Assembly: GCA_028565715.1 (NCBI GenBank) | Contig: JAOXYC010246455.1 | Location: 1-25,291 of the forward strand | From: Phoronis pallida | Taxonomy: Eukaryota; Phoronida; Phoronidae | Direction: 5' to 3' | DNA length: 25,291 nucleotides | Shown here: positions 15,501 through 18,500 of the stretch, piece after piece | Position numbering within the stretch: the first letter of the stretch is position 1 | Layout: every line of letters begins with the position of its first letter | Program-made: the position numbers and the translations under genes | Notes under the pieces: generated by a model | Database searches by the model: none | What the model was told of the DNA's origin: nothing | The model's input: the letters and a program-made list of their open reading frames with translations, nothing else

Positions 15501-18500
15501 TTTAACGACAAACACGAATTTAATCAAATTAAACTTTATTGACAATAAAAGTAGAGTTGGCAACATATAACAGTATTTGAATAGAATCTCAAATGTAAAC
15601 CCAAAAAATGAATAATTTTGAAAGGCCCCCTAATATTTTTTGCTTCCCTTTTATTGTCAATAAAGTTTAATTTCATTCAAAATTTAAATTGTTTTGACAT
15701 CTAACTTACAGCTGTCTTCAATTAGGGAAATTTGCCAATGGGTTTTGTGACAAAATCATATAATTTAAGAATTTTTACATTTGAAGTCACTGCATCACTA
15801 TAAGCAAATGCTTGGAACAAGGACTAGGTTCCACAGATACATTCTGAATGGCTCTCCACTATCATTGTCAGTCTGTAAAAAAAAAAATTGTTTTGATTCC
15901 CGGTCGTGTTCCAAATTCTCAAATTGTATTTATCAATAATTTTACAAGTCTGATTGAAAATGCAGCTGTTTTATGCACGCTGATACGTTGTAATGGTCGT
16001 TCATAGTGGCGAAATAAATCTCTTTCGACCACTTCTAACTCACCGAGTAACTGTCCAATCGTCGCCATTGTTAAAATATGAAGTAATCAATAATTGTAAT
16101 AATTAAACAAATTGACATTTCCAGCTGAAGTTGGTGATTACCATGAAGAAGACTGTCAGCCGGGATATGTTGCCAAGTTTAAGATGTTGCCCAGACAAAC
16201 GAGCAATGATGAAGAGAAAATTATGGATATTCATAAAACTCTCAGGTGGGTCTTGGGCTTAAAAGGTGATGCCCATTGATCCCATTTTGAACAAAGCGAA
16301 TTTGCTCACCCCCCCCCCCCCCTTTTATAGGCGGATCAAATTTATTTTATTGAAGATTTCCGATTTTTCATACTTCGTCAGTCATCTGGGCATACAGCAA
16401 AAGTCAGAGGACCTTTTTTTGCTCTTCAACTTTTTGAGGAGATTGTTTGACGTTATTGAGTTTATATTGTTCCCCCTCTTTCGACACTGGTTTAGTTTGT
16501 GATATTTGCACATAAAAGGAAGTGTAACATTGTATTTGCACATAAAGTAAGGTGTATAATGCTTTGAAGTGTTTTTCTGTGAATAAAATGTAGACCCTGC
16601 AACATTAACACTCTGAAATTCAAAATATCAGGCATGCACTTCGCCTATTCAGAATTCTATTTTATCATATAACTAACCTTGTATTCAGTGCCATAACATA
16701 ACAATAATACGTTATGCACTCCAGCCAAACTTTCAAAATGGGTTTACTCAAAACTCCCCATTTTTTTGCAAATTGGCGATGTTATGTGATAAAATGATTC
16801 TTAAATTCATGGGAAGTAATAAACCTTTTATTATTTGGATTCGATTTTAAAAATCATAGAACTCGCCAAAGGCTGGATCTTTGATTTTTCAAATCTCATC
16901 CAATTAAAGGTGTTATTACATCCCATTCATTGTAAGAATCACTTTATTAGCCCGCCTGATTTCCAATGTCATTGAAGGACTTCTGAATCTAATGATCTAG
17001 TCAGATTGTTAGGTGTAAGCAGTTCAAATTAACTTTGGAATCATTTAGTATATTGATTTTATGGCATTAATGCAATGCTAAAAATACTACCCTGATATCT
17101 GGTATATTTTTCAGTTTGACAAAATAATAACGGTTATTAATCATAGCAATTCTCTTGTGACATCAAAAGATTAATGGTGGTCTCTGTTAATTGAAGTAAA
17201 TAGCTGAGGATTATCAGAAAAATCAACCTTCAATATATTGCTTGCCAGACAAGTGCGCTAACCTTTACACCATAGTGGCGCCCTGATATAATTTCCTTTA
17301 CCCCACTTATTAAAGAAAATAGTATATCTTACAGAAATTCTCTTAATCATGAGTCATTCATTGCAGCTGTGGTTTTCCTTTTAGTTGTCTATCATGTATA
17401 CCACTACTTAAAGATACTGTCTCCTCGTTGGTGAGGATCTGGGGTCAAAATTAAAATCAACTTCAAATGTTGTGTATGGGTCCTTTGATGAATATAATTA
17501 ACTTGCATCTGAGTAAAACAATTCAAAAAAATCTGTAAGGGGTGATTTGAGAGCTTTTTATCCCAAAAAAGTCTTAACTTTGTCTGCAGACAGTTATATT
17601 TGAATACAAAAAGCTCCAAAAACCCCCTTTACAGATCTTTTGAATATTTTTATCAAGATACAAGTTAGTTATATATTATATGATATTGAATAATGAGTTA
17701 GTTATGTTCATCAAAGGACTCATACACACAATTTCTAGTTGATTTGAATTTTGATTCTAGATCCTCACCAACGAGGAGACAGTATCTTTAAACTTAATCG
17801 GCATATTTCCCCATTTATCTACTTTGTGAACTGGATTTGAGTCAAATTTGTATTGAAAATAACAAATCACATTTCTCTCCATTTAGTGGCCTGGTACTGG
17901 ATTTGAATTAAATTTGAATTGAAAATAACAAATCACATTTTATCCCATTCAGTGGCCTGGTACTGGATTTGATTCAAATTTGTATTGAAAATAACAAATC
18001 ACATTTTATCCCATTTAGTGGCCTGGTACTGGATTTGAATCAAATTTGTATTGAAAATAACAAATCACATTTTATCCCATTCAGTGGCCTGGTACCCGCC
18101 GAAGCAGAACAGCGCTTCCTGAAAAAGGCGTGTGCCCTGGACACGTACGGTGTCGACCCCCACCAAGTACAGGACAGTAAGAATGTGTCCATGTACCTGG
18201 GCGTGACACACCTAGGCGTGGTCACGTTCCACTCTAACAAGAGGAACAACCTCTATAAGTGGGAGAACATCAGTAAACTGGCCTTTGATAGCAAGATGTT
18301 CATTATACACCTGGACGAAGAGGAGGTAAGTTTGAGAAATTTTATCAACTTTTAAACCAATGGTGTTTCAGCCTGTTTCTTTGTTACCGGAACATTTTCT
18401 TCAGTCATTTGCATACCTTTATTTTCTACTTAATATGATGTTTAAAACATAATTAATTGAATACAAATAATTAATTATTTAATGTGTTATTGAAATTATA

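Follow-up and report, generated by a model that had tools for sequence, protein, structure and literature searches.

A minisatellite spanning the end of intron 6 and the start of exon 7 in an FRMD5-like gene repeats its splice acceptor

In the stretch of Phoronis pallida DNA analyzed here (the window, 25,291 nucleotides), four tandem copies of a 66-base unit run across the boundary between intron 6 and exon 7 of an FRMD5-like gene, each copy bringing a 3' splice site of its own. We consider it likely that this array is a minisatellite private to the locus, born by tandem duplication across the boundary and near-neutral, with the last acceptor expected to be dominant.

Host gene and location of the array

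The product of the gene contains FERM N, FERM M, FERM C and FERM-adjacent (FA) domains, all four scoring above the Pfam cut-offs. Among the matches listed (120 of 1172), the best named relatives are labeled FERM domain-containing protein 5-like, with about 55% identity, and come from nemerteans, molluscs and other lophotrochozoans; a few lower-placed ones are named FERM domain-containing protein 3-like. Relatives with solved structures are band 4.1-type FERM domains. With its four domains and with FRMD5 proteins as closest named relatives, the predicted gene is classified as FRMD5-like. In the same window, positions 1-985 of the + strand contain what we take to be the last exons of another gene, whose residues, judged by eye, resemble the C-terminus of HMG-CoA reductase. 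No tRNA genes were found in the window with ARAGORN; two tRNA-like stretches seen by eye (20040-20115 and 20430-20505) are possibly tRNA-derived repeats. The features needed below are the following, in window coordinates.

3427..22727, + strand: FRMD5-like gene model, 13 exons, 577 codons plus stop (consensus splice-site joining)
16125..16245, + strand: exon 6, 121 bases (gene model)
16246..18084, + strand: intron 6, 1839 bases, donor CAG/gtgggt (gene model)
17408..17791, + strand: inverted-repeat element in intron 6 with TTAA at both ends, MITE-like (genome search; ends by eye)
17830..18095, + strand: 66-bp tandem array, four copies, last 11 bases inside exon 7 (Tandem Repeats Finder, unit alignment)
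17830..17895, + strand: unit 1, the most diverged, AG at 17885-17886, extra AG at 17840 (unit alignment, AG scan)
17896..17961, + strand: unit 2, AG at 17951-17952, with in-frame TAA and TGA if read from the first AG (translation, unit alignment)
17962..18027, + strand: unit 3, AG at 18017-18018, frame open (translation, unit alignment)
18028..18093, + strand: unit 4, AG at 18083-18084, acceptor for the conserved protein (translation, homologue alignment)
18085..18325, + strand: exon 7, 241 bases, coding for the last part of FERM F2 and the beginning of F3, donor GAG/gtaagt (gene model, Pfam)

Architecture of the array

Tandem Repeats Finder (TRF) reported a period of 66, 4.0 copies, 93% matches and a score of 467 for the array; this score was the top of 15 rows in the window, and 20 dinucleotide shuffles of that sequence reached 58 at most. 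Its head-to-tail copies of a unit of at least 7 bases make the array a minisatellite. The earlier note had placed four 66-bp units at 17821..18084. The units are real, but better limits are 17830-18095: the nine bases at 17821-17829 are unlike the unit, and the final 11 bases lie within exon 7.

Each unit comprises 55 intronic bases and the first 11 bases of exon 7. As that note had proposed for a duplicated acceptor, unit alignment placed all four AGs directly before TGGCCTGGTAC, that is, exon 7 bases 1-11. The four acceptors are spaced 66 bases apart, and the only other AG in the array is the one at 17840, leaving AG-free stretches of 64 bases between acceptors. The copies show 0 to 9 differences per 66 bases, and GC content is 52% in exon 7 versus 32% in the array unit. 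As in intron gain by tandem duplication, the duplicated segment carries splice signals over the boundary. A decayed fifth unit was not found upstream of the array, where the best alignment was matched or beaten by 50% of 2000 shuffles. RNA structure was rejected as an organizing principle, because the array plus 25 exon bases gave a z of -0.33 and 75 of its 200 shuffles equalled or exceeded it in stability.

The placement of the array at one exon edge is unsurprising by itself, because, with 24 internal exon edges, a randomly placed 266-base array would be expected to cover 0.25 of them, and the window's 13 arrays together 0.99. The in-frame property would arise by chance in about 1 in 12 cases (1 in 3 for a multiple of three, and 26% for 22 open codons, the frequency at which a random frame stays open over 22 codons in dinucleotide shuffles of the unit).

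The unit is probably private to this gene

A 27-base core of the unit, searched with at most 3 mismatches, gave 7 matches in 11.7 Mb of genome, all inside two arrays: three of the four window units, and four of the five units of a second contig described below (C852). The diverged first unit of each array lies beyond the mismatch limit, and other copies as diverged would be missed in the same way. The reversed-pattern control gave 0 matches in the same 11.7 Mb. As the core search located the unit at this gene only, the array is unlikely to be a transposon's repeat, and we rejected the idea that it forms part of the neighboring TTAA-flanked element or a dispersed repeat; when 40 of 745 candidate places were scored, array-covering matches occurred in C852 and the window alone. 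The inverted-repeat element in intron 6, present in both contigs, ends 38 bases before the array in the window and is separate from it.

That element is one of several in the window, the others lying at about 430-750, at 14098-14454 and at about 20702-21012. These elements have many genomic relatives (40 of 745 candidate places scored), and the two whose ends were inspected are MITE-like, with TTAA at both ends, which we take to be a piggyBac-type target. C852 lacks the element at 14098-14454 and has just one TTAA at that site.

A second version of the locus has five units

By searching the genome with the window we found C852, a contig of 10,236 bases from the same genome. Positions 77-10,099 of this contig match 11,683-21,697 of the window as a series of colinear blocks, about 83-96% identical, interrupted by unmatched gaps. 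Exons 3-12 are open in C852, with 6 of 325 residues changed (dS 0.083, dN 0.008). Its array contains five units (C1 to C5), versus four in the window (W1 to W4), in the contigs as assembled; the copy number differs between the two contigs, which would be VNTR variation if they are alleles.

The order of the units is common to both contigs: W2 and C2 are identical, W4 is one base off C5, and the closest C unit to W3 is C3, with 2 differences. As these pairings keep the order, the extra unit is probably C4 or C5, on the exon side, and the array was probably in place before the two versions split, its size having changed by one copy since. The acceptor of C4 is weakened, with GAG in place of CAG. 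Across units 1-3, the two versions diverge by 3.5% (7/198).

C852 might be the other haplotype or a recent duplicate, and thus a paralogue. As haplotype controls, four regions were searched in the same genome, and one of the four had a colinear second copy: a 6 kb region (C200), matched in C703 by four pieces of 81-92% identity and one of 73%. For the other three, the genome gave no colinear second copy of a 1.4 kb region (L003; a 249-base match and many short-repeat copies only) or of a second 6 kb region (C500; multi-copy repeats only), and no second copy of a 1.0 kb region (L008), which matched itself alone. The exon 2 and exon 13 regions likewise had no second copy in the genome sequence searched. 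This is what one would see were C852 merely to stop on each side, but a partial duplicate would look the same.

Other differences were observed between the two versions. The reverse complement of C852 contains two duplications that TRF did not report in the window: a 144-base doublet at 5289-5579, which begins 18 bases into the intron past the exon 6 donor, and, at 1583-1821, a near-doublet of 124 bases. A 21-base array at 21483-21653 of the window, with 8.1 copies, starts 26 bases past the end of exon 12 and has about 4.9 copies in C852. Tandem duplication is frequent in this stretch, between the two versions. Over 16938-18325 of the window, the versions differ by 1.5-3.5% in most pieces and by 5.9% in one 34-base piece; intron 7, by comparison, differs by 7%, and most of the remaining blocks by about 7-17%. 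This low divergence would fit either recent exchange or local constraint.

Predicted products of the four acceptors

When exon 6 (ending at 16245) is joined to 17953 or to 18019, 44 or 22 residues are added in frame after Ser183. When it is joined to 17887, a TAA appears at codon 191, the eighth codon after Ser183. Translation of the joined exons therefore agrees with the earlier note, both on the in-frame insertions from the AGs at 17951-17952 and 18017-18018 and on the stop reached from the first AG (AG1); its residue number for His179 is also correct. The acceptors of C852 offer insertions of 22, 44 and 66 residues, with AG1 leading again to a stop, and unit 2 contains two stops in both contigs.

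The second and the last acceptor (AG2 and AG4) share one 15-base upstream context and tie in position-weight score. The last acceptor ranks 11th of the gene's 12 when each is scored with a matrix from the other 11, and when 78 further AGs of intron 6 were scanned, 14 of them outscored it. With 11 sites, this gene-derived matrix is too small to decide and does not discriminate between AGs. On these scores, the result would count against a simple 'best site wins' argument. Acceptors competing in cis reportedly respond to proximity and exon sequence (Reed and Maniatis 1986). In introns with distant branch points, the second splicing step is described as a search for the first AG past the branch point (PMC1431707). 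Since the array is otherwise free of AGs, bar the one at 17840, a branch point in a given unit should, under this linear-search rule, lead to the AG of that same unit.

At the protein level, 101 of 119 homologues are ungapped at the junction, 17 have one extra residue and 1 has two (119 alignable among the 120 listed, of 1172). The structural model used for the junction, that of a Solemya protein (P0002), has a mean pLDDT of 68.8 overall, 93 in the block 171-180 and 89 in 181-190.

Alternative readings of the array

One alternative is that the upstream acceptors are used to make functional FERM isoforms, with 22 residues per unit inserted between two F2 helices and a range set by copy number. 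The required frame is open in units W3, W4 and C3-C5, the unit length of 66 is divisible by three, AG2 equals AG4 in context and score, and the copy number is unequal between the contigs; moreover, in the homologue model the junction falls in a loop of six residues that links two confident helices (168-179 and 186-199) and could accommodate an insert. Against this, none of the 119 aligned homologues has more than two extra residues at the junction. The consensus unit is open in one of its three frames, but a random frame of the shuffled unit is open in 26% of cases. Relative to the consensus, silent changes in the nine units number 7 (40 possible), replacing changes 13 (151 possible) and stop changes 4 (7 possible), a change common to several units being counted more than once, and these proportions give no sign of frame constraint. 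We therefore judge this reading unlikely. The earlier note had proposed that copy number tunes the isoforms: four and five copies do occur, but the homologues, the stops of unit 2 and the missing sign of coding constraint speak against the tuning. We consider it quite unlikely that the acceptors form a ladder in which each 66-base cassette adds 22 residues to the F2 loop and repeat number sets protein lengths (44 extra residues at most with four units, 66 with five), while the stops of unit 2 cap it by decay. The array might instead act as a non-productive switch, in which AG1 competes and its use includes the stops of unit 2, so that nonsense-mediated decay lowers the mRNA. In each contig the TAA is the eighth codon past the serine at the junction, unit 2 has one and the same sequence in the two, and a first-AG search after distant branch points (PMC1431707) would suit such a switch. 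However, identity over 66 bases at a background of 3.5% (7/198, units 1-3) is weak evidence of constraint, and each unit has a candidate branch site of its own; we rate the switch as distinctly improbable.

The remaining two readings concern introns and assembly. Each GT in the 11-base exonic piece could pair with the next AG, multiplying the intron into 59-base mini-introns separated by 7-base micro-exons. A boundary-crossing duplication in the potato RdRp gene did give rise to a new intron, whose donor was supplied by the duplicated exon (PMC4974935). Here, however, the donor CTG/gtactg, which the earlier note had put forward for a 7-base micro-exon, is weak: its score is -0.88 versus 4.0 to 12.8 for the gene's 12 donors, the latter computed with those donors inside the training set. 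A scan of 88 GTs in intron 6 gave 40 that score at least as high, unit C1 has GC in place of GT, and 7-base exons shift the frame unless three are used. By sequence score, the duplication has thus brought no usable new donor, the micro-exon does not hold up, and we give intron multiplication almost no credence. Finally, the repeat may have been collapsed or expanded in assembly, the contigs not being truly different. The array is present in two separate contigs, with unit-specific bases in the same order, which makes such an artefact very improbable.

A model for the origin and tolerance of the array

We favor a minisatellite born across the boundary. We infer the boundary-crossing origin because the unit contains 11 exonic bases which, in the terminal copy, are coding and fit the conserved junction spacing of the homologues. 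The two bases AC, by which the left edge of the array overlaps bases 10-11 of exon 7, may have seeded the first duplication, and slippage or unequal exchange would later have altered the copy number at the exon-side end. Each unit is a candidate acceptor module made up of a pyrimidine tract, an AG and, some 25 bases upstream, an ATAAC that by eye resembles a branch site. Because every new copy brings an acceptor and the last one abuts the real exon, the copy number is free to change with the mature protein unharmed, and the array is tolerated since its last copy always gives the correct acceptor.

We hypothesize that the last acceptor dominates through exon definition with the exon 7 donor GAG/gtaagt and through the GC contrast between exon and unit. 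The upstream acceptors may give minor products with multiples of 22 extra residues, while any product of AG1 would have a premature stop. If the choice simply ran 5' to 3', AG1 could be favored. The array is probably close to neutral; it could have a regulatory role.

Near-identical serial acceptors at a fixed spacing of 66 bases constitute a natural test of the choice between equal 3' splice sites, for which the candidate deciding factors are the first AG past the branch point, nearness to the exon's donor, and exon sequence. The 4- and 5-copy versions in one genome would permit a version-specific readout.

Comparison with known systems

The array is of a known kind; among the papers listed in searches of open-licence literature, none concerned a tandem repeat with a splice acceptor in every unit. 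In ABCA7, as here, an intronic repeat of variable copy number is tied to a splicing outcome, its length being linked to exon 19 skipping; the abstract of that report does not describe repeat units that hold an acceptor (PMC5954066). The 18-nt tandem exon of mouse Csn1s1, with 14 copies, is likewise a serial in-frame duplication of a splicing module, but there whole small exons and part of the downstream intron are duplicated (PMC3048548), whereas here only the acceptor side is. The tandem-duplication model multiplies splice signals as seen here, but it duplicates exonic sequence, while our unit is mostly intron.

The closest precedent is the potato RdRp gene, where, as in our array, the duplicated segment crosses an intron-exon boundary with branch site, pyrimidine tract and 3' splice site. 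There, a cryptic exonic GTAAG donor was activated and RNA-seq showed a new spliced intron (PMC4974935). In contrast, the present array copies only 11 exon bases with a weak donor and has 4-5 copies. It may thus show boundary-crossing duplication before, or without, a new intron.
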